Below, one piece after another: positions 9,672 through 54,350 of a stretch of DNA of 64,000 nucleotides (positions within the stretch are counted from its first letter, which is position 1; each line of letters begins with the position of its first letter). The notes below the pieces were generated by a model. The model did no database searches, had not been told where the DNA came from, and worked only from the letters and a program-made list of their open reading frames with translations. The position numbers and the translations under genes are program-made. Location: positions 21,114,645 through 21,178,644 of the forward strand of contig OX393552.1 of NCBI GenBank assembly GCA_947650365.1, read 5' to 3'. The DNA comes from Chamaelirium japonicum (Eukaryota; Streptophyta; Magnoliopsida; Liliales; Melanthiaceae).

Positions 9672-9689
9672 GTCCCACCGGGCGTGCCA
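9672..9689 (-). other. Primer-binding site of G1
   Basis: On the minus strand the sequence TGGCACGCCCGGTGGGAC lies a few bases inside the LTR edge. This is the common tRNA primer site shape of plant Tat-type gypsy elements and fixes the inner LTR end at 9,696. Confidence 0.75.
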
Positions 9690-9695
9690 GAAATC

Positions 9696-11828: not shown

Positions 11829-12322
11829 GTCGCGTTGTCCCAATAGTCCTACCCAAGTTAGCTATGGTGTTTGCAGGTCCATTAGCTTCCCGATAGACGT
11901 GAGACCACTGTGCCGAAGGCAGAGAAAGTTTCATTCGTCGGCAGTCTGCAAGGATGGAGGCGAAAGGTGTATTGGCTCCGAGTTGTTGTATGGTGTGTAG
12001 AGAATCCCCTTCAATCCATAGCGGGACCTATGGATACAAAGAACAGATCAAACGAAGTCCAATAAATAAGCCAAGTTTTTTTTCTGTATATCCACATTAG
12101 AGCACAAAGACCGGATAAGCAGCTGCCCAAAGTATGTGCCCACAGCTATCGCGCATCAAAACCCACTGCCCACCGATCTATTGGCATGATCGACAAAGGC
12201 ATCAAAATTCATTTTTAGTTCCCCCGGATTTGGTGGAATCCATCGGACCGTTATCATGAAAAAGCAACAAGGAAAAGCCGTGTGAAAGCCAGCCAACAGA
12301 AGCTCCCGATGAAGGGAGAGAA
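11829..12322 (-). pseudogene. LINE 3' fragment (RNase H tail), remnant of an upstream array unit
   Basis: About 490 bases aligned by eye with the LINE at roughly 47,083-47,573 and with 31,010-31,501. On the minus strand it covers part of the LINE's terminal RNase H domain. Left, it is cut by the LTR of G1; right, it ends at GGGAGAGAA followed by the copia LTR, exactly as at 31,501. It is a relic of the ELIP-LINE-copia unit whose ELIP is not in the window. Confidence 0.8.
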
Positions 12323-12439
12323 TGATTATTCAACTCTAAGGCTCAAGGATATAAATAGATACAATCTGACTTGTTGTGCAAGTCAGATATACTCACACAC
12401 TTCTCTCCCAACCACACACCTATACATGATATCTCAACA
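12323..12439 (-). repeat. 3' LTR of C1
   Basis: 117 bases with TGATTATTC...TCTCAACA ends. It contains a TATA-like GATATAAATAGATA and a 10-base stem hairpin (ATCTGACTTG / CAAGTCAGAT). A polypurine tract (GAGTTTGAGGGGGGGC, minus strand) lies just inside. Nearly the same LTR stands at 31,502-31,616. Confidence 0.75.
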
Positions 12440-12667
12440 GCCCCCCTCAAACTCCCGGTGGGTCAAACAGAGTGAGTTTGCTAATCAGATACAGGAAACA
12501 CTGAGGGAGTGAGATTTTGTGAAGAAGTCCGCGATCTGCTCAGCAAAAGAAACGTGTAGTAGGAAGATGGTCTCAGCCTTGTAGTGCTCTTGTGTGAAGT
12601 GGTAGTCGATCTCGATGTGCTTCGTTCGCTCATGAAAGACCAGATTACAGGCGATCTGGATGACACT

Positions 12668-13835
12668 TGTGGGGGGGTTTTACTTGGATCGGGCGGTTCA
12701 CTTGGAATGCACAATCTAACAAACCAAATAACGAATAGGACCGGGTTTACATGGAAAAACCCCCTTCTCAACGTCGAAGGGGGAAAAACCATGGGCGGGG
12801 CAAGAATGCACTCAAACAACAGTTTGGTTACAAACTCTCACCCTAACCCAATTACACCCTGAGAGGACCGGTCACCCAAGATACCGTCCTCTGCAATCTC
12901 ACTTTCTCTAGCTCTGTAAATTCCGGAAAGAATCGGGCAGCACCTCATCCAGAATTCGGTATCTTCTGTTGAAGGGGTAGGTCCCCTTTTATAGAGTCCT
13001 GGGATGACAGTTGGAGCGCTCCACACGGGACGGGTTGATGACATGCTCTCGCAACGTGCTCAAACGTCTGCGTGGTGGGGACGTGGTGCACAGTTGGCAC
13101 CCGGTAACTTCGGCCGGAAATCTTGGGAGTGTGGGTTGCACTCCCGTAACAGTTGTACTACTGAGATTCCCGGACTCAACCATCACGCGTTTTGGGGGTG
13201 TGATTCTTGGGGAACTCGATCCCTCTCAAGCCGCTTCTTCGCACGTGGCCGACCATCAGAGGGGGGGCACTCCCCCCTGGTTTCGTGCATGGCCGACCAG
13301 CAGCCAAAAGGAGGGGCAGTCCCCCCCCCCCCCTTTCCTGCTTTCGCGCGCGACCGACCACCAGGGGGGTGGACTCCCCCCTCCCTCCACTTTCGTGTGC
13401 AACCGACCTCTAGGGGGGAGTGGACTCCCCCCTCCCTCTACTTTCGTGCGCGGTTGACCTCCAGGGGGGAATGGACTCCCCCCTCCCTCTACTTTCGTGC
13501 GTGGCCGACCTCCAGGGGGGGTGGACTCCCCTTTCTCTCCCTTCGCGCATGGCCGACCCATAGCGAAAAGGAGGGGCAGTCCTCCCTTTCTCCTCTTCAT
13601 GCGTGGCTGACCCGCGATGATATTGCGGCCCCCGGTAGGTTCGCTTGCTTCTCCGGGGCCTGAAGCGCCCCCTTTCACCTCTTCGCGTGTGGCCGACCCG
13701 CGACGAGATTGCGGCCCCCGGTAGGTTCGCTTGCTTCTCCGAGGCCCAAAGTACATGGTCGACTCGCGACGAAGTGCAAGGTCGGTCCGCGACATGGTTG
13801 ACGGCCACCTTCCGGTCGGACCATCGAGGTACACA
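12668..13835 (-). repeat. 3' LTR of G2
   Basis: 1,168 bases, TGTGGGGG...GTACACA. It contains a roughly 55-base GC-rich minisatellite (13,250-13,620) with C and G runs. The polypurine tract is on the minus strand at 13,836-13,847. Confidence 0.85.
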
Positions 13836-14095
13836 TAATACCCCCTCATGATCGGTCGGTTTCCAGGTGCTTTCTGACTGATCATGATCATTCTTCTTTC
13901 ATACTCTGCTGGTTATGCATTGTGGTGACTGTGCGGTTGTCTCGGTTGTGCATTTTCACCTTTCGAGTGTTCGCATCAGCCAGTCTAATTCCTTGCGAAG
14001 TCTTTCGATCAATCAATCTTTCCTGCTAGGTCTTTACTATTATTGATGGGTAGAACTCAGTTTAGAGTGTTATATACCCAGACGGCTTCAAGAAC

Positions 14096-14580
14096 TCACC
14101 CCCGCTCCACGACGGGGGCAAGTGGCTCTCGGAAGAGGACTTTTGCTTGACCCACCTCGTGGAGGGTCAAGTGCTCCCGTAGGAGGCTTTTGGCATGACC
14201 CAACTCGTGGGGAGTGAAGTTCTTGCGGATGAGACTTTTGGCCTGACCCAACTCGTGGGGGGTCAAGTGCTCCCTGAGGAGGCTTTTGGCCTGATCCAAC
14301 TCATGGGGGGTCAAGTGCTCCCGAATGAGGCTTTTGGCCTGACCCAACTCGTGGGGGGTCAAGTGCTCCCGAAGGAGGCTTTTGGCCTGATCCAACTCGT
14401 GGGGGGTCAAGTGCTCCCAAAGGATACTTTTGGCCTGACCCAACTCGTGGGGGGTCAAGTGCTCCCAGAGGAGGATTTTGGCCTAATCCAACTCATGGGG
14501 GGTCAAGTACTCCCGGAGGAGGCTTCTGACCTGACCCAACTCGTGGGGGGTCAAGTGCTCCCGAAGGAGGCTTTTGTACT
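14096..14580 (-). repeat. 48-base coding minisatellite in G2
   Basis: About ten copies of a 48-base unit from roughly 14,100 to 14,575, with two further copies at 14,925-15,020. Because 48 is a multiple of three, the minus strand stays open for 120 codons (14,458-14,096) and would give a 16-residue repeat of the form LTPHELGQAKSLLREH. The predicted peptide is an amphipathic, helix-friendly repeat. No known family is recognised; it may be coding or simply frame-preserving by its length. Confidence 0.65.
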
Positions 14581-15474
14581 TCACCTTTTCACACATCTTC
14601 ACTGATTGGTTGTACTCCATGTCGAGTCCTTTGACTGGTCAGTCATTACTACGGATCGGTCTGTACATGATAAGGAGTGTTTCACCTTGGGCATGTTCAC
14701 CGACCAATTGTACTCCTTGTTGAGTCTTTCGATCGGTCGATTTTTACCTGTCGGTCATACTCCCTCTTGAGTCTGTTGACCAATTGGTGTTTATGATTTA
14801 CCCCCAATCCACAAGGGGAGGAAGTTTCAGCCGGTCATACTCAGCATTGAGTCTTTTGACCGATCGATCGTTCGCCCGACCGACTCTTTAACTTCAGTCG
14901 GCTGGGTCTTCTTGGGGGAGGTTTTTGGCTTGACCCAACTCGTGGGGGGTCAAGTGCTCGCAGAAGAGGCTTTTGGCCTGACCCAACTCGTGGGGGGTCA
15001 GGTGCTCCCGGAGGAGGCTTCTGGCTTTAGGATGGACGATTCCGTCTAGGGTCGGTCTTCCCGATCCTTCGCCACCCCCAGCCCTCTCCTATTGCTAGGG
15101 GATCTTGGACAATGAGCTTTTACATAGAGTCTTTATTGATAAAACAAGAACTTGAAATCTTCCATTAATCAAGTCATTACATTATTAGGCTCGGGAGGCT
15201 ACAAGTAGTAGTGCTCAATTAGCAGAGGGCATCCTTCTTGCACCTCATCGACAGGCTTATGGGCTGTGCGTCGGGGATGGTCAATGAACTGGTCGAGGTA
15301 GCCTGCTTCAACGGGGTCCTCGATGTGATTCTGCAACGCTCGATACTGCTCCTCCTTGATGATCTCGTCAATCGGCATGTTCCGCACCGTAAAGTCCCGA
15401 TTCCATAGGGTGTAGGGTGCTCTACCATGATCACCCCGTTTTTGGCACTTTGCATCGTGCTGTATCGACTCGCC

Positions 15475-16095
15475 TTACTGTTTTTCTACATTCCATACAG
15501 CCGCTGGTCGATTGAAGGCTGGTTGCTGGTCACTAGTGTCTTTAGTCTTCTGCTTTCGTTTGGCATCTTCGATTTTGATGTATTTCTCCACCCTCCGGAA
15601 CAGCTCGTCGATTATCGTGGGCGGCCGCTTGATGAGTGAGGCGCTAACAGGTTGGTTAGGTTGTACTGAATTCTTGAAAGCCGCTACCACCATGAGGTCT
15701 TGTCCATCAACATCAACCAAGCTCAAGTATTCAGTCCTGAACCAGTGATAGAAATACTTCAGTGTCTCCTTCTGGGTCATACTCATCCCGAAGAGTGACT
15801 CCAAAGTCTTCAGCTCCCGGCGGTTGCAACAATATTGATCGATGAACCATGTGCTCGGCTCAGAAAAAGATGATATGGATGAGGGTCTGAGCTTGTGGAA
15901 CCATTTGAGGGGGGTTCTCGACAAGCTATTGGCGAAGGTCCAGCAGAGGATATGGTCATCTTCATGGGGGACTAGGACATCTCGGAAGGCTAACACGTCC
16001 TCTACCGGGTCCTTTGATCCATCAAACTTAGGGAGGCAGGGAGGATTCCACCCACGGGGGAATGGCTCGTTGAGGAGTTTTCCGATAAGTGGCAA
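15475..16095 (-). CDS. G2 gag-like ORF
   Basis: A 206-codon open frame with Retrotrans_gag features: LPKFDGSKDPVEDVLAF, then PLKWFHKLRPSSISSF, then RELKTLESLFGMSMTQKE and LKYFYHWFRTEYL. It covers most of a Ty3/gypsy capsid domain, and its start is uncertain because the frame may begin further upstream. It is the only recognisable retroelement protein between the two LTRs. Charged residues at the end (RVEKYIKIEDAKRKQKTK) resemble the start of a nucleocapsid, but no zinc knuckle is seen. It may supply capsid in cis while enzymes come from a partner element; this is inference. Confidence 0.75.
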   Translation of the reverse strand: MPLIGKLLNEPFPRGWNPPCLPKFDGSKDPVEDVLAFRDVLVPHEDDHILCWTFANSLSRTPLKWFHKLRPSSISSFSEPSTWFIDQYCCNRRELKTLESLFGMSMTQKETLKYFYHWFRTEYLSLVDVDGQDLMVVAAFKNSVQPNQPVSASLIKRPPTIIDELFRRVEKYIKIEDAKRKQKTKDTSDQQPAFNRPAAVWNVEKQ

Positions 16096-17079
16096 CCGTG
16101 CAGCCCCTCAGATGGCGACCTCCTCCAGTTGATCAAGTGCCCATGCTCTTGATCGATTCTGATGGATTTCTTCTCTATCTCCAAGCCGCTTTGACGTAGG
16201 CAACCTGATACGGTCATGGATGCTTCTCCTGTCAGCAGTATGAACTGGCTGCCGACTAGCCGGTGTCACACGAGTGTGGTGACTATCGCTTGGTTGACAC
16301 CGATGTTAATCTTCTCGCTTTGGATGGCGAGGTTGCGCTGAGTCCGTCTTCGAGTGGTTCTTGGATACGGGTGGCTATCGGGGGTGTGCCTTGAGCCGGG
16401 ACCATACATCTGAGCGTGCCGACGCTACTGGGGCTTGCTTGTTTTTTTCGGTAGGTTTCGAGCTACTTGAGTCGCGCCCATCAGGATTTGCGCTTTAGAC
16501 CTCCACCGAGTGATTTGCTGGGGGTTGCACTGGCCCCGGTTAAGCAACTTGCATAGGAAAGGCTTTGTCCAGCTTGGGCCAATATGCCCTGGTTGAATGG
16601 GCCGCCAACCTGTGTGGCTCGCATGAAGTCGCGCAACTCCTCGTAGTTACGTTGCATTGTCTGGAGCTGCGTGGTGAGAGCTTACTGAGTCATCATCATA
16701 GTAGCCAGAAAAGCCTCTTACAGACCTCCTGCTATAGGAGCCATGATCACTATCGAAGCTTAGCTGGACTCCCCGACCCCCAGTGTGGGATTCATCAGCG
16801 AGATGGTGCGCTCTGTGTTTGTTGGTGGTTGAACCGGGTTTCCGACATCATTAGCATCTCCGAGTGGAGACGGGAGCTGAGAAGTCGAACGGGTACGATA
16901 TGGTCCCCCGGCCATTGTTCTTCAACCTCGCGGTAGTAGTGATGACTTCTGTGTTTACTGGTCAGTCGATACCCATGGGTCAGTCAGTCAGTAGCTTCGG
17001 ACAAGCTGCAGGTAGACTCAGACTGGTTGACACCCACGGGTCAATGATCGAGTGCTCTGGTAGGAAGTCTCGAAGATGA

Positions 17080-17097
17080 TCCCACAGACGGTGCCCA
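17080..17097 (-). other. Primer-binding site of G2
   Basis: Minus-strand TGGGCACCGTCTGTGGGA, three bases inside the LTR edge, marks the 5' end of G2 on the right side. Confidence 0.6.
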
Positions 17098-17100
17098 GAT

Positions 17101-18266
17101 TGTGGGGGATTTTTCCTTGGATCAGGCGGTTCACTTGGAATGCACAATCTAACAAACCAAAGAACGAATAGGACCGGGTTTACGTGGGAAAACCCCTTCT
17201 CAACGTCGAAGGAAAAAAAAATCCACGGGCGGGGCAAGAATGCACAACAGTTCGGTTACAATCTCTCACCCTAACCCAATTACACCCTGAGATGATCGGT
17301 CACCAAAGATACCGTCCTCTGCAATATCACTCTCTCTAGCTCCGTAAATTCTGGAAAGAATCGGGCAGCACCTCCTCCAGAATTCGATCTCTTCTGCTGA
17401 AGGGGTAGGTCCCCTTTTATAGAGTCATGGGATGACAGTTGGAGCACTCCGCACGGGACAGGTTGATGACATGCTCCCGCAACGTGCTCAACCGTCTGCG
17501 TGGTGGGGACGTGACACACGGTTGGCACCCGATAACTTCGGCCGGGAATCTTGGGAGCGTGGGTTGCACTCCCGTAATCGTTTTGCTACCGAGATTCCCG
17601 AGCTCAACTGTCGTGCGTTTTGGGGGCATGATTCTCGGGGAACTCGATCTCCCTCGAGCCGCTTCTTCGATCACGACCGACCATTAGAGGGGGGGGGGGG
17701 GCACTCCCCCGTCGGTTTCGTGCATGGCCGACCAGTAACCAAATTATGGGGCAGTCCGCCCCCTTTTCTGCTTTCATGCGCGGCCGACCACCAAGGGGGG
17801 TGGACTCCCCCCTCCCTCTGATTTCATGCACGACCGACCTCCAGGGGGGGAGTGGACTCCCTTCTCCCTCTACTTTTGTGCGCGGCCGACATCCAGGGGG
17901 GAGTGGACTCCCCCCTCCCTCTACTTTCGTGTGTGGCCGACCTCCAGGGGGGTGGACTCCCCCTTCTCTCCCTTCGCGCGCGGCTGACCCTCAGCGAAAA
18001 GGAGGGGTAGTCCTCCCTTTCTCCTCTTCGTGCGTGGCCAACCCGCGATGAGATTGCGGCCCTCGGTAAGTTCGCTTGCTTCTTCGAGGCCCAAAGCGCC
18101 CCCTTTCACCTCTTCACTTGTGGCCGACCCGCAACGAGATTGCGGCCCCCGGTAGGTTCGCTTGCTTCTTCGGGGCTTGAAGTACATAGTCGGCTCGCGA
18201 CGAAGTGCAAGGCCGGTCCGCGACATGGTTTACGGCCACCTTTCGGTCGGACCATCGAGGTACACA
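17101..18266 (-). repeat. 5' LTR of G2
   Basis: Direct repeat of 12,668-13,835, with the same TGTGGGGG start and GTACACA end. The two LTRs bracket the 3.3-kb interior. Confidence 0.85.
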
Positions 18267-21200
18267 CAACACCCTTGTTGTCACAATAGAGGGCAGTAGG
18301 TGAGGAGACTTCAACCCCAAAGTCTGAAAGAAGGCGTCTGACATAGACGATCTCTTTGGTTGTTGAAGCCATGGCACGATACTCGGACTCTGTGCTGGAA
18401 AGAGACAACATCCTACTTTTTGCTGCGCTAAGAGATAAGAGACTCGCCAAGAAAGAGACAGAAACCAGTAGTAGAGAGCCAAGTAGTAGGGTCGCCTGCC
18501 CAATCAACATCGGAGAAGGCCCGAAGAACCAGAGAGGAATCTGCTGGCATGAGAAGAGATCGGGTAATGGTGCCTCGTAGGTACCAAAGGATCCTCAGAA
18601 GGGCAGCATAGTGAACTGAGCGAGGGGCCTGGACGAACTGACTGACAATGCTTACAACATGAGCGATGTCGGGTATGGTGATACACAAGTAGACAAGCTG
18701 TCCTACTATTTGCCTGTATCGTACTGTAGCGTTGATAAGAGGCTCCCCGTTTGTGGGTCGAAGTTGAACATTAAGCTCCTCAGGCATATCTGCAACCTTC
18801 TAATCCACAAGTGCAGCTCGAGCTACGATGTCTGCAGAGTAGCACTGCTGAGAGATAAGGATGTCGTCTCGACTCTATGCTATTACTTGGCCAAGGAAAT
18901 AACGGTGACAGCCCAAATCCTTCATCGAAAACTGACATTGTAGATGATCATATCGTCAACGTAGAGAAGGAGAACCCGCCCCTGCGGTGACGACTGCACA
19001 AACAGAGAGTGGTCCTGGTAGCTCTCCAAGAAATCAACTTGGCGAACAGCACTGTAAAAATACTCGAACCAAACGCAACCACTCGGTAAAGATGACAGAC
19101 ATGGTGAGGAGGCATGGAGAAACCAGGTTGCGGCTGCATATAAATGACCTTAGAAAGGGTGCCATGAAGAAAGGCATTCTTTACGTCCATTTGAAAAAGA
19201 GGTCACTGTCTCGCTACAGCAATGGCAAGTAGAGTTCGAACTGTGGTCATCTTACCCACCAGAGCAAAAGTCTCATTATAGTCGATCCCGGCTTCTTGAG
19301 AGAAGCCTCAAGTAACAAGCCGGGCTTTGTGATGCTCGATAGATCCATCGGGTCGGTGGTTGACCTTGTAGACTCATTTGCAGCTAACGGGCTCAACTCC
19401 AACAAGAAGAGGGACAACATACCATGTTCCAGTCTGAGCAATAGCCTAAAGCTCCTCGACCATCGCTTTTTGCCACTATGGGTACTGAACAGCCTCTCGA
19501 TTGATAGGAGCGGGGCTTTGAAGGGGTGGCGTGAAGAACTCTAAGAAAAACCTGGTATGAGGGAGCATAAGAGCGGGTAATAGCAAACAGATTTAGACAG
19601 TTAGGCTGGCGATGTTCACATAGAGGGTAGCGATGCTCAAGAGTTGGTACAGGTTCCTCAGTCGGAGGTGGCGGAACCGAAGGCGGAGTCAGATGAGGAG
19701 ACACAGGAGGAGTCTGAGGCAGAGGTGAGGGAGGAAACACAGGGGGATCCATAGGCTCAGAAGGAGCCTCAGGGAGAGGCACGGAGGGGGTGCACAGAGA
19801 AGGTGCATGAGGGTTGAGCCGGTAGGTCTCTACGAGAGGAAAAACATAGGGGCTAAGCTGGGAAGATCCGACAGGAGAAGGGGCAACAGAAGTGGACGTA
19901 ACTGGTGGAGACGGGACACGGAGGAGAGAAACTGAAGGTCCTAAGAAGAAGGAGAGTAGAAAGGAATGTCTTCAAAGAAGGATACTTGTCGTGCGAGACG
20001 AAGATGACGGGCAACAGGGTCATAGCAACGATAACCCTTATGCTCGGTAATTAGGTCTAGGAGAACACATTTAGCTATTGTGGGAGATAGTTTGTTGTGT
20101 TCATGAGGAGGCAATAACACAAAGCAAGTACAGTCAAAGACACGAAGCATGTCATAGGAAGGAGGTGAAGAGAAAAGATGCTCATGAGGAGATGAATCAA
20201 ATAAAATAGCGGAGGGGGTGATTTTAATTAAATTTACAGAGGTAAGGATCGCCTCTGCCCAAAAAAAGCGAGGTACAGAAGAGGAGAGAAGAAGAGAATG
20301 TGCCTTCTCAAGAATGTGACGGTGTTTGCGCTCAGTAACACCATTCTGCTGTTGAGTATACGAACAAAACTGCTGAAAAAGAGTATCATGTGACCGTAGG
20401 AGAGACCACATATCATCAAAAAGGAACTCACGAGCAGGGGCGGACCTACGTTGGGGCGAGGGGGGGCTCAAGCCCCCCCTGACTTTAAAAAAAAAAAATC
20501 GGATTTAATTCGGCTGAAAATCCCGTATCCTGATATCCCCCGACCCGGCGACCCCAAGAGTCCCGCTCTTGTATAAATAGACCCCCGCGGCCCCGCCCCG
20601 TCAGCCCCTCACGGTTTCACCCTCCCTGACGCTGCGAGCCTGCGAGTCCTGCGACGTCTATCGTCCTCTGTTCGTTCGAAAAACCTAGCGGTCTGCGGGC
20701 CGGCGCAGCGGTGAGTCGGCGACGGCGGCGAGTCTGCGGGCCGGCGCGGCGGTGAGTCGGCGACGGCGGGGAGTCTGCGGGCCGGCGCGGCGGCGAGTCA
20801 GCAATGGAAGCCTAGCGGTCTGGGGGCCGGTGCGGCGGCGAGTCGGCGACGGAAGCCTCTCGGCCCTCTCCCGAACCCGATCTCGGCGGTCGGCGGCGGC
20901 GGCCACGGCGGGCTCTCCTCTTCTCCCTCTGTGGCTTCCAGGCGGTGGTCGCCCACCTCGCCGGTACGCATCCAACGGATTCCGACGGCGGCGGCCTGCT
21001 CTTCGTAACCGCCGGGCGGTGGGTGGTGCCGGACCTGCAGGAGTGCCGGTGGCTCACCAGAGTCGGTCGGAGACTCGGACGGTCGGGCCCTTCACAAGTC
21101 ACAACTCACCACTCACCAGGTCGGTTCTCAGCCTCTCACCAGTCATACCGTTCTTAATATTAGATTACAGGATAGAAGGACAAAAGGCGACTAAGCGGAA

Positions 21201-21425
21201 TTTTCATACCGTTCTTAATATTAGATTATGTTTGCTTAAACTTAAACATTCTCAGATGGCTAAACCCAAAACAATTTACCTGCTTTTGAACCTTATCTAC
21301 AGGACTTCAAGATCTAATACCCTAAATTTCTTTGTTTTCTTTCCTAATTTAATAAATAAGAAAGAAAAAAATACAAACTTCTTTCTTACTTTTTTGGGAG
21401 GAACCCCTCAGCATCACATAGGGGT

Positions 21426-21902
21426 AGGGGTCGCAATCGGGTCGGGTCGTGTCGTGTCTAGTCGTGTTCGTGTCCAAAAACCCTAGACCCGGACCTGACC
21501 CGTTTAACTAATCGTGTCTAGATCCTAAACCCGTACCCGACCCGCCAATAAACGGGTAGACCCGGTAAGACCTGTTTATCACCCGGACTACTCAGTTGAC
21601 CCGATCGGACCCAATCCGACTCGACCCGACCTGACCCGAAAGACCCGCTGGTATTATATATTATAGTATCGGATTGCGGGTAGACCCGACCCGACCCGAC
21701 TCGACTTGACCCGCTGAATACTAAACGGGTCTTCCCGGGTCTACCGTGTCCAGACCCTAAACCCGGACCCGACCCGTTTATTAAACGGGTCTATCGTGTC
21801 GACCTGTTTATGACCCGAACCCGTTTAGCCCTGACCCAGACCCGCTAACTTCGTGTCGGGTCGTGTCGGGTCTACCGTGTCGGGTCCGAAATTGCCAGCC
21901 CT
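21426..21902. mobile_element. Small TIR element rich in GACCCG motifs
   Basis: 477 bases with imperfect inverted ends (AGGGGTCGCAATC on the left; reverse of right end AGGGCTGGCAATTTCGG). The interior is almost wholly degenerate GACCCG/GGGTC repeats. Flanks share ACATAGGGGT (21,416-21,425 and 21,903-21,912), a 10-base match that may be an 8- or 9-base target duplication extended by chance. No ORF. The same terminus recurs at 63,976. Confidence 0.65.
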
Positions 21903-22104
21903 ACATAGGGGTAAGGCCTGGACCCCTACTAGTTATTTAACCATGAAAACGAGATTCAATCCGTCTCTCGTACAACCACCGAGAGACTTCACCAGTTATG
22001 CTAGCCGTCCGATGCACGCGACGGGTGCATCGGATGCACAGGGCGGTGCATCGGATGGCTGCAGACGCGGACCGCACAGACCGCTGGACCGCACCTAAGC
22101 ATCC

Positions 22105-22294
<190 letters not shown>

Positions 22295-22535
22295 AAGGAA
22301 ATTTGAGATCCTTTGGGGAAAAAAAAAAAGTAAGTTTTTTCTCATGTCCTATTATGATAGTTAGTAGTTGCTCATATCTCTTTTGAATTGAAATTTGGGA
22401 TCATTTGGGGTAGGGAAACGATCACCATTTAATATATTTTAAATGGCATTTAATTGATTTAAAATTGTAGAACCTACATGTTTGTTATTCTATGTAATAT
22501 TAATTTGAATAAATCTTTAAAAAATTAAACCAGGT

Positions 22536-27052: not shown

Positions 27053-27135
27053 ATAATCATTCAGCTATAAGGCTCAAGGATATAAATAGATACATGATAT
27101 CTTCCAACCACACACCTATATATGATATCTCAACA
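27053..27135 (-). repeat. 5' LTR of C1 (short form)
   Basis: Shares GGCTCAAGGATATAAATAG and the ATATCTCAACA end with the left LTR but is shorter. A degenerate initiator-tRNA primer site (minus strand TGGTATTAGATC, near 27,017-27,028) stands inside it. Confidence 0.6.
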
Positions 27136-30825: not shown

Positions 30826-30830
30826 ACATG

Positions 30831-38244: not shown

Positions 38245-38744
<500 letters not shown>

Positions 38745-38805
<61 letters not shown>
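38745..38805. repeat. (TA)n microsatellite, right of MITE
   Basis: 61 bases of TA repeat abutting the right arm of the MITE. Confidence 0.97.
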
Positions 38806-38807
<2 letters not shown>

Positions 38808-39987: not shown

Positions 39988-40350
39988 TGTTGGAGTTGAA
40001 AGCTCGCACAAAAAAAGAAGCTACTTATTGCTACAGCAAAAACAGAGTTAGAAAATAGAGCAAATGGATTGAGAGTATAGCCAACTGAAACTTGTTAAAC
40101 AACCAGAAAACATTGCCTATAAATAGGCTTACAGCAACAACCCACAATGCTCAAAAATAGGATAACGATCCCATGATCAAAACATGGAGGGAAACAAACT
40201 CCACTTCCACCTAAATATGTGGAGACCCATTCAACACTACTCATAACTACCCATTACAACTGAAACAACCACCTCCTAAATTAGTTGACAGAAAAATAAG
40301 GAACAAAAACCTAAATTACAGGGTAGGCTGATATGCATCATCCTTCAACA
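39988..40350 (-). repeat. 3' LTR of C3
   Basis: TGTTGGAGTTG...CCTTCAACA, 363 bases, with TATA-like CCTATAAATAGG near 40,118. Confidence 0.93.
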
Positions 40351-40562
40351 CTCCCCCTTGATGCAAAATCTGTCACACCAAGTAAGGTTCTAAATTTGAA
40401 AAACTTCTCACAAGAGAGAGCTTTGGTGAGACCATCTACAACTTGATCCTTTGTAGAACAATGCTTCATCTTGATCGATCCGTTTGCAACCACCTCTCGA
40501 ATGAAGTGATTCCGAATTTCAATGTGCTTTGCTCGACCATGAAAGACAGGATTTTTAGTCAT

Positions 40563-43500: not shown

Positions 43501-44340
43501 TGCCCAACAAAATGCCTCTACATGTCCATGCCTTTTGCAAAAATGACACTGCATTCCTTTGAAATTCTGATTTTGACTGCCTCTGTCACTATTCCCATAT
43601 CTCTGATGCTGCATATCAGACTTCCTCTTCCTCTACCACGTCCACAATAGCCACCTCTTCCTTGACTTCTTCCTGTAAGCCTTTGATTAGAAGTCCATTC
43701 ACAATTTCTGAACTTGTTAGGAATCTTTATCTTTGACTGAAAAACATTCTCTATGTTCTTATCCACAAATCTGTTCAACCTCTGCTCATGAGCTAAACGT
43801 GAACTCATCAATTCATTAAATGAATAAACAAATAAGTCTTTTGATTCTTTAATTGCAGTAACTATATGATCAAATTTTGAAGGAAGGCTCCTCAAAATCT
43901 TTTCAACTACTTTATTGTCAGTAATATCCTCACCAAATGTTTTCATTTGATTCACAATAATAGTAACTCTAGATACATAATCTTGAACAGATTCACCATT
44001 TTTCATGTAAAGATTCTCAAAATCTCTTCAAAAAAATTGTAATTTTAAAGACATTACCTTGTCATCCCCTTGGAATTCTTGCTTCAATATAATCCAAGCT
44101 TCCTTTGACTTTGTGGCATTTGCAATTCTTGGAAAGATGGAGTCACGCACAGCTTGTTGCAACACAAGTAATGCATTTGCATCTTTCTTCCGAAGTTCCT
44201 TCAGTTCAGTTTGCTTGTCTGTACCCGTCGAACTTTCTGCTTCTGCATAACCATTCTTAACAAGTTCCTATAGATCTTGAGAAACAAAAAAAGTCTTCAT
44301 CTTAATACTCCAATATTCATAATTTTCTCCGGTAAAAATA
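40563..44340 (-). pseudogene. C3 gag-pol remnant
   Basis: Reading leftward: gag (about 44,340-43,518; KNGESVQDYVSRVTIIVNQM), a CCHC zinc knuckle (CHFCKRHGHVEAFC, about 43,556-43,515), aspartic protease (WFLDSGCSNHMSG, about 43,405-43,367), integrase (FTDDFTRMSWMYF and LRTDRGREF, 42,760-42,590), reverse transcriptase ([20 protein letters not shown] near 41,570) and RNase H (41,252-40,563; STSGFAFSFGSGAVSW, SSSEAEYIAATSA). Gag-PR-INT-RT-RH order is the Ty1/copia order. Several breaks; a fossil. Confidence 0.92.
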
Positions 44341-44562
44341 GGAACCAAAGCTTGAGACAGGTTAAGAGTATTTGCTCAATTCATCATACTTAAACAGTCA
44401 CATGGAACTTTTAACAAACACTTGGTATGCAACAGAGTTACCTTGCTTTAGAATTTCACACTTACTATGATGGGCTCCTTGAAGGATCTTTGCTACAGCA
44501 ACTGACCTCCACAACATGACACAACGCCCAACTTTGATGGAACCCGGCTCTGATACCAAAAA

Positions 44563-44925
44563 TGTTGGAGTTGAAAGCTCTCACAAGAAAAGAAGCTACT
44601 GATTGCTACAACAAAAACAGAGTTAGAAAACAGAGCAAATGGATTGAGAGTATAGCCAACTGAAATTTGTTAAACAACCAGAAAACATTGCCTATAAATA
44701 GGCTTACAGTAACAACCCACAATGCTCAAAAATAGGATAACGATCCCATGATCGGAACATGGAGGGAAACAAACTCCACTTCCACCTAAATATGTGGAGA
44801 CCCATTCACCACTACTCATAACTACCCATTACAACTGAAACAATCACTTCCTAAATTAGTTGACAGAAAAATAAGGAATAGAAACCTAAATTACAGGATA
44901 GGCTGATCTTCATCATCCTTCAACA
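44563..44925 (-). repeat. 5' LTR of C3
   Basis: Direct repeat of 39,988-40,350, same length, next to the tRNA-Met primer site. Confidence 0.93.
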
Positions 44926-45284
44926 AGGAGGCTGCCAGCTTTCGCCTGAACGCAGCAGAGAAGGCAGGGCTGCACGGCAGCAGTTGCAGCAGAGGGCTGG
45001 TGGGTGGCGTTTGTAGCGGAGGACCGGCGGTCTAGGGCTGCACGCAGCGGAGGTCCAGCGGGTTGGGGCTGACGGCGTAGAGGAGGCTGCCGGCGTTCGC
45101 CTGAACATAGCAGAGAAGGTAGCCGGCGTTGGTGCGCACAGCAGAGGAGGGGGTCGGGCAGTACGGCGTCAGCGTCGGCGTTGTCTAGCAGGCACCACAG
45201 CGGAGAGCCGACGTCCGCTGGACTGCTTGCGATCTCATATCGCAGAAGGAAAGAAAGGAGCATGGGCTGGCGGCTAGGGCACTA

Positions 45285-45698: not shown

Positions 45699-46268
45699 CT
45701 ACACGAGGGGCCCACCCGTCAAGTACTCGGTGAAGGCCAGGGCCACCAGGCCCATCATGGCGAACCGCCCGTTCCAAAGCTCCGCGTCGGCCGTCATCAG
45801 CCCGTCCGACCGGGACTGCGGGCTGACGCCCTTGAACAGCGGCACCAGGGACGCCACCGACAGCAGGGCGGCCGTCCCCAGGAACCACGGCAGCCCACCG
45901 TTGGCCACCTGCGCCAACAGGCCGTCTCCCCTCGCCGCCTCCACCGCCAGCGCCGACACGAACCCGACCATCGCCAGCCTGCCGTTGATCCTCTCCGGCG
46001 CCGGGCCGCTGAAGGCCAGCAAGTCCGTGAAGCTCGTGCTGGCCTTCGCCTTGGGCGGTGAGGCCAGTGGGCTCTGGGTCGGCGGCGGCGTGACAGGTGC
46101 CGGCTGCTCCCGTGGTGGCTCCTCCGCTTGGCAGCGTACCCGCATCGAGCCGGCGGCATGTCGACGAGGCACCAAGTGGACGGAAGGAAGACTTGAGGAA
46201 TGGCTCCTATTTCCGACACGTGGCAGTAGTCCTAACACGGAGGACTGCATTGTGGCTGATGCTGCCAT
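45699..46268 (-). CDS. ELIP: Early light-induced protein 2 (ELIP), chloroplast thylakoid
   Basis: A complete 189-residue ELIP without introns, the duplicate of ELIP1. It shares the transit peptide start, the [11 protein letters not shown] helix I signature, [16 protein letters not shown] in helix II, and helix III with [11 protein letters not shown], the family consensus. Compared with ELIP1 it lacks three residues of the proline linker. By eye about a dozen substitutions separate them, nearly all before residue 77; after that only three are seen (Ser/Gly near 119, Leu/Trp at 168, Lys/Thr near 187). This pattern points to selection on the membrane domain and says both copies were kept functional. 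Start chosen as for ELIP1, at GCCACCATGG. Expected role as for ELIP1: pigment binding and photoprotection. Confidence 0.95.
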
Positions 46269-46903
46269 GGTGGCTTTTCAGGGTCTAGGAATGAGTGCAC
46301 GTATATGGGTTTGCTCGAAGTGTTTATCGAGAAACAGAGGAGTTTGGAAATTTTGAATCGAGGAGCCCGGCGTTATATAGGGTTGCAGAGGGCGGCAAAC
46401 AAACGGCTTCCATGCGGCCACGTCACTGACATGTTTCGGACCACGAGACGTTGTCCCGTGGACGACCTGGTCACCACATTGCATGGTGCCATGACGTGGA
46501 CGGTCAGGATACCGGAGAAAGTGAAGAGACCCATTTTGTATGGTAACGTTACCTGCTCTTGTTTTGGATTTTGACGCGTTGGACCTGCCGTGCTTCTGTA
46601 GCCCTCCCTCCCACCGCTTCCAAAGATCACGAGACTCACAACCTCAGAGAATCTGAGCCAAAACTTTATCACAACCGTCCGGTTCTATAAATCCCAACCT
46701 GTGAATCGCACTAAGCAGGGCCGACACGCAAAAGAACGGATGTGATTGAATCATGATCATCCGTTACACCAAGTCCCAACCAGTGAATCACACTCAGCCG
46801 GACCGATGTGCAAAGGGACGGCCCCTTGCAAAAAATGTTCTCTCTACTCCTTCGATTGAAGTGTAGAACACCGGAGGAACCTTGCAATAAAGGCATGTTT
46901 GTA
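46269..46903 (-). promoter_or_regulatory. ELIP2 promoter region
   Basis: 635 bases up to the LINE poly-A. TATA-like CTATATAACG at 46,371-46,380 (minus). Paired opposed TGACGTGG boxes at 46,418-46,425 and 46,492-46,499. The inverted repeat at 46,441-46,461 has one mismatch relative to ELIP1. Unlike ELIP1, no LTR is inserted; GGCATGTTTGTA at 46,893 is the empty site. Confidence 0.7.
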
Positions 46904-49853
46904 TTTTTTTTTTGGTAACACTATTTATAAAAAAGAGGCTACAAAATAAGAAGATTTAAGTGGAAATCCCACCCAGACTAATCGAGGTCATGTACATGTC
47001 GAGAGTAACACCAGAAGACCATCTCCAGCTGCACCGTGACCCAGACAGCCATAGGGTAATCCTCCTGAAAGAGCCGTGCCCTCCCAATAGTACTCCTAAC
47101 CAAGTTAGCTAAGGTGTCTGCAGGTCCATTAGCTTCCCCATTGACATGAGACCACCACGTTGAAGGCAGAGAAAGTGTCATTCGTCGGCAGTCTGCAAGG
47201 ATGGAGTCGAAATGTGTACAGTATGAGCTCCAAGTTGTTGTATGGTGTGTAGAGAATTCCCTTCAATCCATAACCGGACCTGTGGATACAAAGAACAGAC
47301 CAAACGAAGGCCAAAAAATAAGCCAATTTTTTCTGCATAATCCACATTAGAGCATAAGACCGGGTAAGCAGTCACCCAAAGTATATGCCCACTGCTATCG
47401 CGCAGCAAAAACCCACTACCCGCCGATCTATTGGCATGATCGACAGAGTCATCAAAATTCAAATTAAGTTCCCCCGGATTTGGTGGGATCCATTGAACCG
47501 TGATCATGGAAAAGCAAATAAGGGAAAGCCGTGTGAAAGTCAGGTAACAGAAGCTCCCGATGAAGGGAGAGGATCTGTATTGCCACCGTTGGAGTGCTTT
47601 CATATCTTTTCCGAAAAATGACACAATATTGCGAGATTTTCAAATCTGCCAAAAAATATGCAGTTAAAAGGTCGGGGGAAAAAAACGAAGCCTTTGCGAG
47701 CAAAGTTCCTTCCCTATAAGAACCAACAGGAAATCATCTGTGGACAAAACACGAGAATCGTGAGGAATGTTTGCTCTTGCGAAAACCTCCTCCCAAATAG
47801 CTGAAGAGTGAGGACAAAGGCAAAGATCATGGTTTATATCCTCCACTGGCTAAGAGCACCGATTGCAATCCATAAGATGGCTCAGACCCCTTTGAACTAA
47901 GAACTGATTGGATGGAAGAATACCATGCAACATCTTCCAATCAAAACATTGGGTCCTGGTTGAAATAGGGAGCTTCCATAGGAGCTGCCACGGGTTGCAA
48001 GCAAATACCGTCCCCGATAGCTTCGGTGAAATAGCCTGATAGGCATCCGAGGTGGTCATCATTGTCTGAACCGAATCTCCCCACAAGATGAAATTAGCTG
48101 GTGGGTGGCCAATAATCAGGATCAAAGCTATATGGTTGCACCAAAAGGGAGGGAAAACAGTGGATAGAAGATTCCGATTCCAAACTGGACCCAATGAGCA
48201 ATTGCAAGTTTAAAATAGTTGGAAAATGGAAGTGATGGACACACAAAACGAGAAATCCATACAGACAAATATCCTGCTGAACGGGGTAGTAGCCACCCAG
48301 GGGAGTTCCCAAGGACTAAAATCTGTTGTGGTCCAAACAGCCACCATAATATTCTCCCTCATGATTGGAAGGCCTAATTGGATGGCCCTCCAAGCCTAGG
48401 AAAGCTTCGAGGGTGAAGGCCAGTGGCAAGGCATGGAAATCTGACCATACTTAAGAGTACAAAAATTCCTCCAAGGTGATGTACCAGAGGTGAGGCGTTT
48501 AAAACCTCGCTTCACCATGAGAGCTACACGAATATGCCGCATCGGGCAGATGCCCAAACCGCCCTTACACATGGGGGTGCACACTCTGGACCACTTTAAG
48601 AGATGAATACCATTAGAGGATTGAGCATATCCCCATAGGAACCTCCTCATTTCCTTATCCAATTGATCTAGGATGCCTCCAGAACCCACCTGTGAGCGAG
48701 TGTGTAGACCGACATAGAAGAGAGCACCGATTTCAGTAGCATTAAATGGATGGCCCGGGAAGGACAACAAAGAAACCTTCCAGCCTACTAATTTGGACAG
48801 GATGTTGGATAAGAGGGCATCCGAGATCCACAGGTTTAACCCGGGTGCCGGAAATGGGCACACCTAAATAGGTGAAAGGTTCCCAAAGCTCGGAAAAACC
48901 CAAGTAGTTTGTGAAGAAACATTTTGCATCCGGACTGACATGAGGGGCAAAGATAATAGAAGATTTTGCCAAGTTCAGACTTTGGCTCTAGAATTCACCG
49001 TAAGAATGAATAAGGTCCATGACCCAAGTAATTTGGGTATATGAATTCTGGATAAACATCGTAGTGTCATCTGCATAAGCTAGCATAGTAGTAGAAGGAC
49101 CTTGAGGGGTAGGAGTCACACCCTTCAAAAGACCCTGATCGCGCAAAGCAGCCATATTACGATTAAGTACTTCCGGAACCAAGGATGAAGAGGTGTGGGA
49201 ACGTCTCCTTGTTTTAAACCCTAGGAAGCCAAAAACCAAGAGGTGTGGGAACCGTTTTAAAAGAATAGTGAATGAAGGGTTCTTGATACAAGCATAGATC
49301 CATTGAGTCCACAGCAGGGAAAAACCAAATCGGACCATAACCCTGTAGAGGAAGTCCCGTTCCATGTAGCCATAAGCTTGAGCCATGACCAGTTTCAAGG
49401 CGATAGTATCCAAATTTCAAGAATCAGACCGGATGGAATGCAGAGCCTCTTGAACCAACAAGATAAAGTCAGCAATGTTCCACCCCCGAAGGAAAGCCAC
49501 TTGATCAGGGGAGATAAACTTGGGCAGGACGACTTTAAAACGATTAACCATAATGCGAGAAATAAGTTTGTAGACTACGGAACACATGCTAATTGGGCGG
49601 AAATGAGCGGGGTGGGTTGGGTCTGGCCGCTTGGGTATCAGAACAATGTAGAAAGCCTTTCAGTGCGGGGGCATGTAAGCTGTCCGAAAAAAATAAAGGA
49701 TGCCCTCCGTAACCTCAGGTCCCACCCTATGCCAATTGGCACAGAAAAATTTCACCGTAAAACCATCCAGCCCAGAAGCCTTGTTGAGGGGCATAGAGAA
49801 CAGAGCCTCCCGCACCTCAGCAGTCATGACTAGCCTGGTAAGCCAAAGGTTAT

Positions 49854-52800
49854 TGTTAAGTCTCCAAATAATGCATTTTATCACTTATTTCGGACTGCAT
49901 TATCATCGCTTTCCTACGTAAAACTTTTCATATACTCGTAAAGCGCATCAGTTTCTTTACACCACTGCATAGTAGACTTTATTACGGACATAACGGTATA
50001 TTGGTTCTCACTCATACGATACATGCATGAAAAATACGGAGCCCGGAAGTCAAAATTATCATTTTTATTGATAATTGCACTGTAACCTTACACTCGTTAT
50101 TTCATATGTGTTTTTCAGGGAACTGACCCGGTACTCGACGCAGTCAGATAGGAGGCATCATGATCGAGCGATGGATAGTCTCACAACAATTCAATGGAGG
50201 ATGCACAGTCCGTTTGGAGGCCCTTGTGAAGAATGGTGCAGAAAAGAATAGTTGCGAAAAGTCGACTGAGATGACATCACTGACTTAACACATCGCTAGC
50301 TGCGAACCACTGAAGAACGATGCATATGCAAAGGGCCTGACATGGAAGAGTTGACGAGTTTGGATTGCTCGAATGGTTACCGAAGCATATCGGCTCCTTT
50401 TCTTTTACCCTTTCTCTCTCATCTCTTTATTACCCGATCTTAACCATCCATTGCATCCATCACCCAACTAAATCCCAGCCGTTCCTCTCGTCCGCAGCCA
50501 TGCATACAAGCAACTGATCGTAACCGTCCAACTCCTCTCTTGATCACACTCTTTCCTATTCTACCCGATCTCCACCTTCACAAACTCATCACAGCCATCC
50601 CTTATAAAACCCCATGCATGCATCCAATATGCAACACCATCACAGCCATCCATTTCTCTCGTCCCATATCTCTCATGCTTTTTCTAATCCCAGCTGTCCA
50701 AACCCAGCCGAGAGCCCCTCCGGATACTATTAGGATCGCCCGCACTACCCCATCTCACAACACCCAACTCTCTTCTTCTCTACTCAATCGCAGCCATCCG
50801 GAGTTCGAATCACGGCCGTCCCTTGCATTCTAAATGCATGCATGCCCGAAATCCATGCAATACCCGTTTCCTTCTCTTATTTTCTTTTTTTTAAACACTA
50901 AACCTGATACACAGCTGCCCCGAGATCACAGCCATCCCTTTATTCCATGCACAGGAACTGTGCATGCACCCGACCAAGCCCAGCTCTCTTTTGACTTCCC
51001 ACTTTAATCACAGCCGTCCGATTTAATCTGAGGACCCATGCAGCTGTCCGATCATCTCTCTCCTCTCGTGTCCAGCGTACACCCGAGCATCTTCTTCTCT
51101 TGTAATCCATCACAGGCGTCCGCACTCCCATACAGCTGTCCGATACACCCGCTCTCTCTCTCCCGCCTCTGTTTTTCTCTTTCTAAAACCCGAACGCCCA
51201 GCTTCTCTCGTTCTCTCGTTTGTGTCTCTCTTATCCCTATTCCGATCTTCTCTCCCTAGAGAGATCTCTCTTTCCTTTTCTCTCTCTACCGAGAAGTCAT
51301 GCAGCCCATGCGCCCAGCCTCTCTTCTCCCGTCTCAGCTTCTCTCTCTAAAGTCTAAACCGACCCGAGTACCACCCGAACCAGCCGTCTCTCTCTCTTCC
51401 TACTTTCTCTCGACCCGATCGTGTCTCTCTCCTCCTACAAACCAGCCGCCCATCTCTTCCTCCCGTTTCTCCCTCTCTTTCCATAACCGACCCAGCCGTC
51501 CCTCTTTCAACCCCGACCCGATCGGCTCCGGACCAGTGTTTTGAAAACCGGACCGGACCGGGCGGTTCAACCGGTTTGAACCGGAACCGGAACATGTTTT
51601 GGTTCGGTCTTTGAATAAACCGGTTTGTATGTTAACCTAGGAATCAAACCTTCCCATTGAAGAATTTAGTAGATATCTATATAAAAAAACATATTTTCAT
51701 ACGGTTCAAACAGTTGAACCACCGGTTTGAACCGATTTGGACCGAACCGGATGCATTTTCGGTTCGCCTTCCGGTCCGGTTTTAAAAACACTGCTCCGGA
51801 CGTCGCTCCCTCCTATCCGATTTTCTCTCTCTCGAATTCTCTCTCTTTCCATAACCACTTCCTTGATTCTCGCTCTCTAAAAACTGCACCGATCTTCTCT
51901 CATTACCGCACCTTTCTCTCTCTAAAACCGACTCTCTCTTTCCTTTCTTAACAGCCACGAAAATCTCTTTCTCTCTCTAAATCCGGACATCCCTGTCTCT
52001 CCTGCCCGATTTATCTCGTTCTAAACCGGGCACGTACCTCTCTCCCTTACTCCCTAAGTCCCTATATATTACATACACTATAGAGCATGGGGAGGGGACC
52101 GAACCATTAGCAGAACCATTAGCCCGAACCATTACCCCGGACTTCTTCCACCATCAAACCCGGACCTTCATCATCAGATCATCACCAACGAACCACCACC
52201 CGACCATTCATCGACCATCCTCCCGATCTTCATCAGACCATCACCCCCGGACACCATGATCAGCCCAAACCTCATCTTCACCACCATTCGAACACCGATC
52301 ACCCTCGTCTCCGAGCCACGCTTCATCCTTGCCGAAGTCACGCCGCACTCCATCGTCCTTGCCGTGGAAGACAATCATCGCCGGACGCCGTCATGCACCA
52401 TCTCAAAGCACACTGTCATCATCTTCGCACATCGTCATCATCACCGGAAGCCATCATCCACGCTCGTCAACCTTCGTATCGTCATTAATGGAGTTTGCTT
52501 GCATTTATGTTTTTATGTTAAAACCTATGAACATGCACGGCTAAACCCCTAGCTAAGGCTATGGGGGATGCCTAGTGGTTATTATGTGTTTCTTTTGATC
52601 AATAATAAAGTTTTAATTTTCTTATGATTGAATGTTATATGGATGACACTACATAATGATGTATGTTATTTTACTTGCATATTTATTTGATTTCGTATTG
52701 ACTCCGGACATACGGAATACTTATGAATCCCTGTGGTAAGATAGCACTAGCGTAACGAGTCTCTCGTCATATAATTTTCAATCTGTATTAATTTTTATGA

Positions 52801-53263
52801 TGGATGCATATCTCTAGAAATCAGCACATGTGTATAAGTTGTTTTGATTACATATCGACTCCGGGCATATGCAATGCTTAATAACCTCTCTAGCATGCAT
52901 GCTAGAACCTATTTTGATGCTATCCTCGTACGAATTATTGATCATGATGAATGCATAAGATACTACTAGGTTGAACCCAGACGCCTTAGTCTCATCTCCA
53001 TCAGAATCTCCTTTATTTAATTGTAATATTTAGTTCTATTTAATTTAGTAACGTAGTTTCATTCTCTCGTGCTCCACTATCAGTGGAAAATCCTGAATTA
53101 CACTCACGTTCACGCACTTCCATTGCACTAGTTCCCATTAGTCCTTCAGTCCCTGTGGAATCGACCTCGGACTCACCGAGATTACTACTTCGCTACACAC
53201 CCTATACTTGGGGTTAAATTACACTTTTTAGTCCTTTAATTAGGACTACTCAAAGTTGTAGCA
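49854..53263 (+). mobile_element. Large solo LTR (Ty3/gypsy type) inside the LINE
   Basis: 3,410 bases, TGTTAAGTCTCC...GTTGTAGCA, flanked by perfect GTTAT (49,849-49,853 and 53,264-53,268). Plus-strand direction is indicated by a TATA box (CCTATATATTACA, about 52,061-52,073), a polyadenylation signal (AATAAAG, about 52,603) and a 3' end (CCCTGTGGAATCGACCTCGG, near 53,150) of a kind seen in large plant gypsy LTRs. U3 is pyrimidine-rich and has many CAGCCATCC-type motifs. No coding domain. Includes one hAT MITE. Confidence 0.8.
51534..51793. mobile_element. hAT-type MITE
   Basis: 260 bases with terminal inverted repeats CAGTGTTTTGAAAACCGG and CCGGTTTTAAAAACACTG and perfect 8-base duplications CTCCGGAC (51,526-51,533 and 51,794-51,801). 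The inside is rich in AACCGGTT motifs. No ORF. Confidence 0.93.
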
Positions 53264-54350
53264 GTTATCCTCAGGGGTGACCAGTTGTGGGAGATGGGCA
53301 AGCATGGAATCATGATGGGTCACAGGGGTAGAAGACCATTTGGAAGCAAAATAAGTAGTCAACTGTCGTTCGATATCTGGACGATCAGAAATCAGAGAGT
53401 CATCGTCATCCAGTAAAGAATGAATACAATTAGATTTGCGCCTAATGAGCGTGGATCGGTGAAAAAACCCGGTATTGCGATCCCCTCCCACCAACCACTG
53501 GAGGCGAGATTTTTGCTTTCACTTGATCCCAATCATGTTAGAAACATTATAACAATCTGCCGTAAGTTGGCTAAGGGATTCTCGCTAACCCAAAGAGAGG
53601 GGGGATTCAGAATCAAGACGCTGAAAGGTAGTAATACGTTGATCAATCGAGATGGACAAGGTTTCTACTCTGCCGACGACCTCCCGATTCCAAGATTTGA
53701 CGTGGCCGAAGATAAGAGAGATTAGAATCAAAGATACAAAAAAGGATTAAACCCTCCCCTCTGACCCCAGTGCAATTGAATAAAGTCCTTCCAATAAGGA
53801 TGAGATAGCCAAAAATGTTTAAATCTGAACGGACGTGGTCCTAGAAGAACATTAGGGGCCAAATTGATCAATAGAGGGCAATGATACGAGGCCAGGTGCT
53901 CCAGGTGCTCTAAACGGGCCTCTGGAAAAAGATCGAACCAACTGTGGGAGTAGAAAGCGCGATCAATATGTTCTAAAATACATCGGGACCCTCGTTGGAG
54001 ATTAGACCAAGTAAACAAAGCCCCCGAAAAACCCAGATCAAGTAGACCAGTAGAAGCTATACATTGCCAAAAATCAGAGACTCCAGCATCCACCCGAAAG
54101 GCCGAGCCACTCTGTTTATCATCTGGATGTAAAAGAGCATTGAAATCACCCGTGATAAGGACGACAATATCAATAGAAGACAGAGACGCAATGGACCTCC
54201 AAAGATCACAACACTCCACTACATTGGTAGAGGCATAGACAACACCCAAAACCCAGGAGTTGGTATCGAGGATAGAGATAGTCGCGATAACCAGTTCACG
54301 GTGAGGGGAATAAAAAGTAACTTGGCCGCCCAAATCCCTCCAGAGCCCTT

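Follow-up and report, generated by a model that had tools for sequence, protein, structure and literature searches.

A tandem array of four ELIP genes lengthened by transposon insertions

Two early light-induced protein (ELIP) genes lie about 18 kb apart in the window, i.e., the 64,000-nucleotide stretch of DNA analysed here, and both are flanked by transposon sequence. Are they members of a tandem array, how did such an array come to be, and is it part of a large expansion of the kind known from desiccation-tolerant plants, as the original prediction had suggested? Our answer, to which we give a probability of roughly 0.9, is that the locus is a tandem array of the ordinary kind, with four ELIP genes, that was later stretched by transposons.

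Four ELIP genes in one row

The window is part of a chromosome-sized contig of a 1.52-Gb assembly. A search of the adjoining contig for further copies in order, as had been advised, revealed ELIP A and ELIP B to the left of the window. The row A-B-C-D consists of four intact, near-identical copies on the same strand, spanning 57 kb (Table 1), with 6.8 kb from ATG to ATG between A and B. Whole-assembly searches with the ELIP D protein and with its coding DNA each gave six matches, the four genes and two fragments; a provisional Arabidopsis ELIP1 protein sequence gave seven, including the same four genes and two fragments, the seventh match having an E value of 0.089. None of these three queries detected a fifth ELIP gene in the whole assembly, nor was a fifth copy found in the 224 kb around the locus. 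At the borders of the row, no relic was found left of A (-27000 to -25000), where there are only LTR and spacer matches, and no unit sequence was found right of D, bar short copia-like matches near 131 kb. A PF00504 profile search of the genome gave 28 matches but was not used for counting, because it listed just ELIP B of the four.

Several features fit an identification of the proteins as ELIPs. The chlorophyll a/b-binding family profile (PF00504) matched above its curated cut-off in C and D, the two copies scanned. Both ExxNxR pigment motifs, those of helices I and III, are present in all four copies in the protein alignment (in A and D, ERINGR at 92 and ELLNGR/ELWNGR at 163); D alone has ELWNGR, and A, B, and C have ELLNGR. 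A hydropathy profile, a crude method, gave three peaks for each of A and D, which fits three membrane helices. In the first 45 residues of these two proteins, where a chloroplast transit peptide would lie, a simple count of composition gave no D/E, six R/K, and 8 to 10 S/T. The best PDB sequence match was RedCAP, another LHC-like protein, in a database that may contain no ELIP. By analogy with the family, the proteins would serve thylakoid photoprotection under stress.

Table 1. Features of the ELIP locus (positions count from base 1 of the window; negative positions lie to its left)
Feature	Position	Strand	Remarks
ELIP A	-11229..-10660	minus	intact
ELIP B	-4414..-3845	minus	intact
ELIP C	27571..28149	minus	intact single-exon gene, 192 aa; PF00504 at 2e-10
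ELIP D	45699..46268	minus	intact single-exon gene, 189 aa; PF00504 at 3.7e-11
Promoter side of ELIP C	28150..28758	minus	common to B and D; TATA -110, ACGT core -154
Promoter side of ELIP D	46269..46896	minus	reaches LINE tail
LINE 3' end, unit C	30827..31502	minus	ends at join with copia LTR
LINE 3' end remainder, unit B	11829..12323	minus	first part at -3261..-3081, left of window
LINE sequence beside ELIP D	46894..54348	minus	continues beyond B/C joint
Degenerate copia, unit B-to-C	12319..27143	minus	nested insertions; 3' LTR remnant from 12319, 5' LTR remnant to 27143
Same degenerate copia, unit C-to-D	31498..45278	minus	gag-like ORF 39024-39743
Ty3-type LTR retrotransposon	-3078..11828 (in window 1..11828)	minus	nested within unit B LINE; LTRs 2134 bp, 99.4% alike; TSD GTCGC
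LTR retrotransposon	12668..18268	minus	private to B-to-C; LTRs 87.9% alike; TSD ACACT/ACACC (4/5); gag match below cut-off
hAT-like DNA transposon	20435..24450	.	private to B-to-C; 8-bp TSD CTCACGAG; DUF4371 below cut-off
Solo-LTR-like insertion, ~2.07 kb	28759..30826	.	splits ELIP C/LINE junction; B and D without it there
Repeat, ~0.32 kb	32045..32365	.	private to C-to-D; relatives near -29.7 and -29.4 kb
Solo-LTR-like insertion	33314..34179	.	private to C-to-D; TSD ACGCT
Insertion, 2.5 kb	36484..38977	.	TGTAAC...GTTACA ends; flanks TAGAT/CAGAT (4/5)
Copia element	39988..44925	minus	private to C-to-D; LTRs 363 bp, 95.3% alike; TSD AGGAG

Similarity among the copies

The gene copies have remained alike while their spacers diverged: the former differ at 16 to 27 of 570 coding sites, and the C and D proteins are 94% identical. 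Selection together with codon bias could have produced this likeness without any exchange, given a dN/dS of 0.24 to 0.36 across the six copy pairs, a GC3 of 0.82 to 0.85, and the small number of informative sites. We consider this account possible but doubtful, since the site patterns clash: of the 10 informative sites between -550 and +250, seven support AC/BD, two AD/BC, and one AB/CD, whereas in the 3' flank A groups with B. Furthermore, A and B show a single synonymous codon difference in the 110 C-terminal codons versus eight in the N-terminal part. The B-D pair, with three and four synonymous differences in its two halves, is without the low C-terminal divergence of A-B and provides no clear contrast, a point on the side of selection alone. 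The conflicting patterns, which rest on 10 informative sites, suggest that the copies have exchanged sequence. A literature search on ELIPs with gene conversion in tandem arrays returned nothing.

Repeated units, their joint, and later insertions

Self-alignment of the C and D regions gave a shared ELIP block followed by a LINE 3' end. The former covers 1509 aligned bp at 89.5% identity (27285-28758 versus 45417-46898), as expected from the prediction that the two genes share coding, promoter, and flanking sequence; all four copies have a TATA at position -110 or -111 and an ACGT core at -154 or -155, while three further ACGT cores common to B, C, and D are absent from A. The LINE end (30827-31502 versus 46894-47574) is 84.6% identical between C and D, and it had been described as following each gene at the same junction. 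It does adjoin both genes, but the C junction is split by the 2.07-kb insertion and, because both are minus-strand genes, the LINE lies on their promoter side. No mutual alignment was found between 26997-27284 at C and 45279-45416 at D, the stretches between copia and the ELIP 3' flank.

The proposed repetition of an ELIP-LINE-copia unit holds for B-to-C and C-to-D, in which promoter, LINE 3' end, and copia occur in matching order in eight co-linear blocks (7228 aligned bp, mean identity 85.7%); base-composition shuffles of unit C compared with unit B gave matches at E<=1e-5 in 0 of 20 cases. It fails at the two ends of the row, where D has a longer LINE without copia and A is without the LINE found next to the other copies. 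Both units share a joint between LINE and copia LTR (at 12323 and 31502), which is absent in D, where the LINE runs on past this point. Hence, the joint is likely the duplication breakpoint. The original left boundary of units of the B-C-D type was not found. The spacer left of B is of another type, and its likeness to the C/D spacers, about 70%, is confined to a segment of copia gag; we dropped this likeness as proof of an old duplication, because the same picture would arise from two related copia insertions.

The distance of about 18 kb between the genes had been ascribed to transposons filling the spacers, and this is what we find: once eight insertions are taken out, the raw spacings of 32.0 kb (B-to-C) and 18.1 kb (C-to-D) come down to roughly 7.45 and 7.40 kb (net unit lengths of 7452 and 7400 bp, with insertion ends taken from the alignments). 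An exact or 4-of-5 TSD is present at all seven insertions checked, the 0.32-kb repeat being the eighth. The insertion at the C junction resembles the LTRs of the Ty3-type element at about 71.6%, and its flanks show CATGT exactly, or at 4/5 if standard TG..CA ends are assumed. Among the older elements, the LINE beside D has RNase H (47181-47639) and RT (49420-49659) matches over the Pfam cut-off, with no Pfam match between them (48991-49416); an endonuclease match at 53731-54348 is below cut-off and possibly belongs to a different LINE. The copia of unit B-to-C has, near 27016, what we take to be a PBS-like motif, and the gag-like ORF of unit C-to-D, without a Pfam match, was recognized by eye.

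How could this row have been built? It may have started from an ELIP gene flanked by two transposons, a LINE roughly 0.6 kb upstream and a copia element roughly 1 kb downstream. A break at which LINE and copia LTR were joined, sharing a few bases at most, would have produced a tandem duplication, and a second event, probably unequal crossing-over, would have repeated the 7.4-kb unit to give the B-C-D side; the A-B side would be a related 6.8-kb unit. Later insertions, different in each unit, would then have lengthened the row to 57 kb, with the genes staying intact and their coding parts probably kept alike by selection and exchange. The locus offers a readable worked example of the way a small ELIP array can begin at a joint between two transposons, in which target-site duplications and LTR ages help to order the later events.

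Elsewhere in the genome, ELIP sequence in antisense orientation is present at the 5' end of two copies of one LINE. It is conceivable, albeit improbable, that the ELIP locus and LINEs trade sequence both ways, a LINE having given one side of the array-founding break and a separate LINE lineage having acquired at its 5' end 125 bp of antisense ELIP coding sequence (coding nt 268-392), which it carried along when it moved. If such a LINE were transcribed from its start, its RNA would open with a stretch of 125 bases complementary to the messages of ELIP A and B and could, if this is true, feed small-RNA silencing of the ELIP family.

Two other explanations of the row are extremely improbable. 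Misjoins are possible in an assembly of 3253 contigs, most of those sized being small, but alleles or haplotypes placed end to end fit poorly with the absence of any N in the 224 kb read, the coding differences between copies, the roughly 11 to 13% mismatches in spacer blocks, and the private insertions of each unit, one with LTRs just 87.9% alike. Carriage of each ELIP to its site by a transposon would accord with the LINE and copia sequence flanking the genes and with the ELIP piece held by two LINE copies elsewhere, but the copies share promoter, 3' flank, LINE, and copia in a single order, the private insertions checked have TSDs of their own without a gene, and no TSD enclosing an ELIP and an element as a unit was found at the seven between-unit sites or the one left of A.

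Array size and other ELIP systems

Arabidopsis ELIP1 and ELIP2 are familiar counterparts. The proteins are 60 to 61% identical to the provisional ELIP1 sequence, but the genes here are single-exon, whereas Arabidopsis ELIP genes have introns.

The array is tandem and its genes are intact, and a large tandem ELIP expansion is a published mark of resurrection plants, according to PMC8558194 and PMC12712429. Tandem ELIP arrays of such plants, reported by VanBuren et al. 2019 as described in PMC8558194, resemble the present one in having ELIP genes duplicated side by side. They differ in scale: PMC8558194 puts the mean ELIP number at 20.7 for resurrection plants as against 3.1 for sensitive species, and the total of four found in this 1.52-Gb assembly is near the latter and far below the former. 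The suggestion that the locus belongs to an expansion of the resurrection-plant kind is therefore very improbable, and that part of the original prediction is set aside: the four-copy array is of ordinary size. Tandem ELIPs by themselves are no sign of a resurrection plant; their number matters. Grasses such as ryegrass and sorghum, in which tandem ELIPs also occur widely, are not known as resurrection plants, and the present array is like theirs in that tandem ELIP groups occur outside resurrection plants. The genome studied here differs from grasses in its RuBisCO small subunit gene, which has an intron within the Pfam domain that is not known from grasses. In eight Poaceae, 49 of 64 ELIPs are tandem, so that tandem arrangement is common there; that work, in the part available (PMC10368995), reports gene lists and expression, whereas the present locus provides the transposon history of the spacers.

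The ELIP row and its repeat unit

A search of the 1.519-Gb assembly (3253 contigs) with the ELIP D protein revealed four intact genes, A to D from left to right, and two fragments on unplaced contigs. The ELIP D coding DNA identified the same six places, and the Arabidopsis ELIP1 protein found these six and one match at E 0.089; search counts for large families are lower bounds. Since the three queries converge, we count four ELIP genes found in the assembly, all within a single row of 57 kb. Pfam classes ELIP C and D as chlorophyll a/b-binding, all four copies have two ExxNxR motifs, and A and D each show three hydropathy peaks. Pairwise dN/dS values of 0.24-0.36 are in line with working genes. 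In helix III, D carries the motif ELWNGR, and A, B, and C carry ELLNGR. Matches to PF00504 (chlorophyll a/b-binding) also form two groups on contig C8 (53058368-53078030 and 53870160-53882676), ~0.8 Mb apart. Eight sizes were seen among the first 13 contigs (C1 137.3, C2 122.5, C4 94.9, C8 81.1, C9 74.0, C11 69.9, C12 69.9, and C13 3.9 Mb), and the drop from C12 to C13 makes ~12 chromosomes likely.

The window spans 21114645-21178644 of contig C4; we analysed it together with 80 kb on either side, 224 kb in total and free of N bases. Self-comparison showed that units B-to-C and C-to-D have in common the order ELIP, promoter, LINE 3' end, copia, next ELIP. Their eight matching blocks total 7228 bp and average 85.7% identity, and none of 20 base-composition shuffles gave a match. 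The stretches separating copia from the ELIP 3' flank, 26997-27284 at C and 45279-45416 at D, do not align. Private insertions explain most of the difference in unit length: once they are subtracted, with ends taken from the alignments, the ATG-to-ATG distances are 7452 bp (B-to-C) and 7400 bp (C-to-D). The uncorrected A-to-B distance is 6815 bp. The tandem, transposon-filled array of the original prediction is thus confirmed and extends leftward beyond the window.

Features of the array and of the LINE copies elsewhere (negative positions lie left of window base 1; TSD, target-site duplication)
Feature	Position	Location	Details
ELIP A	-11229..-10660	left of window	intact; found with ELIP D protein
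ELIP B	-4414..-3845	left of window	intact; found with ELIP D protein
ELIP C	27571-28149	minus strand	single exon, intact, 192 aa
ELIP D	45699-46268	minus strand	single exon, intact, 189 aa
Ty3-type element	-3078..11828	unit B-to-C	LTRs 99.4% alike; TSD GTCGC exact
LTR element	12668-18268	unit B-to-C	LTRs 87.9% alike; TSD 4/5 bases
hAT-like element	20435-24450	unit B-to-C	TSD CTCACGAG exact
Solo-LTR-like insertion	28759-30826	unit C-to-D	TSD CATGT exact or 4/5, depending on element end chosen
0.32-kb repeat	32045-32365	unit C-to-D	
Solo-LTR-like insertion	33314-34179	unit C-to-D	TSD ACGCT exact
2.5-kb insertion	36484-38977	unit C-to-D	TSD 4/5 bases
Copia element	39988-44925	unit C-to-D	LTRs 95.3% alike; TSD AGGAG exact
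LINE RNase H match	47181-47639	beside D	above Pfam cut-off
LINE RT match	49420-49659	beside D	above Pfam cut-off
LINE endonuclease match	53731-54348	beside D	below Pfam cut-off
LINE copy	~C181:401403-408397		98.7% alike to C65 copy over 6987 bp
LINE copy	~C65:566401-573387		

History of the array

The LINE ends at 12323 (unit B) and 31502 (unit C), where it directly abuts a copia 3' LTR apparently shortened by ~23 bp at its end, as gauged against the other LTR and a motif that we take to be PBS-like. Past 47574, D diverges from this joint and LINE coding sequence runs on, with no Pfam match in 48991-49416. Because the joint has a few bases in common between the two sides and no TSD was recognised there, we read it as the probable breakpoint of a tandem duplication, with D retaining the original right flank. 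An original left flank matching the joint was not found. ELIP A lacks the LINE, and the spacers left of A and of B are of another type, 88% alike to each other, whose likeness to the C/D spacers is mainly a copia gag segment (~70%). Left of ELIP A, two related LTR-type elements (near -36296..-26342 and -20175..-12024) have tandem repeat arrays in common (-33801..-31001 and -17615..-15654); a local tandem repeat occupies 63064-63928, at the window's right end.

Seven of the eight private insertions, all but the 0.32-kb repeat, were checked for TSDs: four are exact, two match at 4/5 bases, and one is exact or 4/5. Assuming 1.3e-8 substitutions per site and year, rough LTR ages are ~0.2 My for the Ty3-type element, ~1.9 My for the private copia, and ~4.3 My for the 12668-18268 element; two spacer blocks give ~5.3 and ~5.7 My.

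The copies also show a mosaic-like pattern. Sites splitting them two against two between -550 and +250 number seven for AC/BD, two for AD/BC, and one for AB/CD. The next stretch, +251 to +618, has no such site, and +619 to +760 has one AD/BC and 40 AB/CD sites, many of the latter being homology loss between the A/B and C/D flanks and not single substitutions. From -600 to -400, B, C, and D are close (0.10-0.12) and A is far (0.28-0.34). The promoter of A lacks ~94 bp and three ACGT cores common to the others (gap near -10476/-10475). Synonymous codon differences in the N-terminal part and the 110 C-terminal codons are 8/1 (A-B), 8/3 (A-C), 7/3 (A-D), 9/4 (B-C), 3/4 (B-D), and 8/5 (C-D), i.e., fewer in the C-terminal part in every pair except B-D. 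These patterns, involving few sites and non-independent pairs, suggest exchange between ELIP copies.

A LINE-borne ELIP piece and the desiccation question

Each of the two ELIP fragments outside contig C4 forms the 5' end of a LINE; the two LINEs are copies of a single 7.0-kb element. The C181 copy has endonuclease, RT, and ORF1-type (DUF4283 and zinc knuckle) domains above the Pfam cut-off and a 16-bp TSD; no TSD was evident at the inspected edges of the C65 copy. The piece, which covers ELIP coding nt 268-392, is in antisense orientation relative to the LINE. The C181 version matches A and B at 125/125 bases and is 99.2% identical to C and D; for the C65 version (117 bp) the corresponding identities are 97.4% and 96.6%. 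When 969 bases of the LINE 5' region were used as a query, nine places were found, of which just these two have the ELIP piece according to the search with ELIP D coding DNA. The match at the other seven stops short of the query's ELIP-side end, so they may have lost their own 5' ends. The LINE could have gained the piece by 5' transduction or template switching.

Structures like this array are already known, and its history is clear; the LINE-borne piece is an odd side finding. The original prediction that the locus might belong to a desiccation-type expansion is not supported: four ELIPs were found in the assembly, and the review PMC8558194 gives means of 20.7 in resurrection plants versus 3.1 in sensitive ones. 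Given these means and the tandem ELIPs of grasses (49 of 64 in eight species; PMC10368995), four ELIPs in a row are ordinary.
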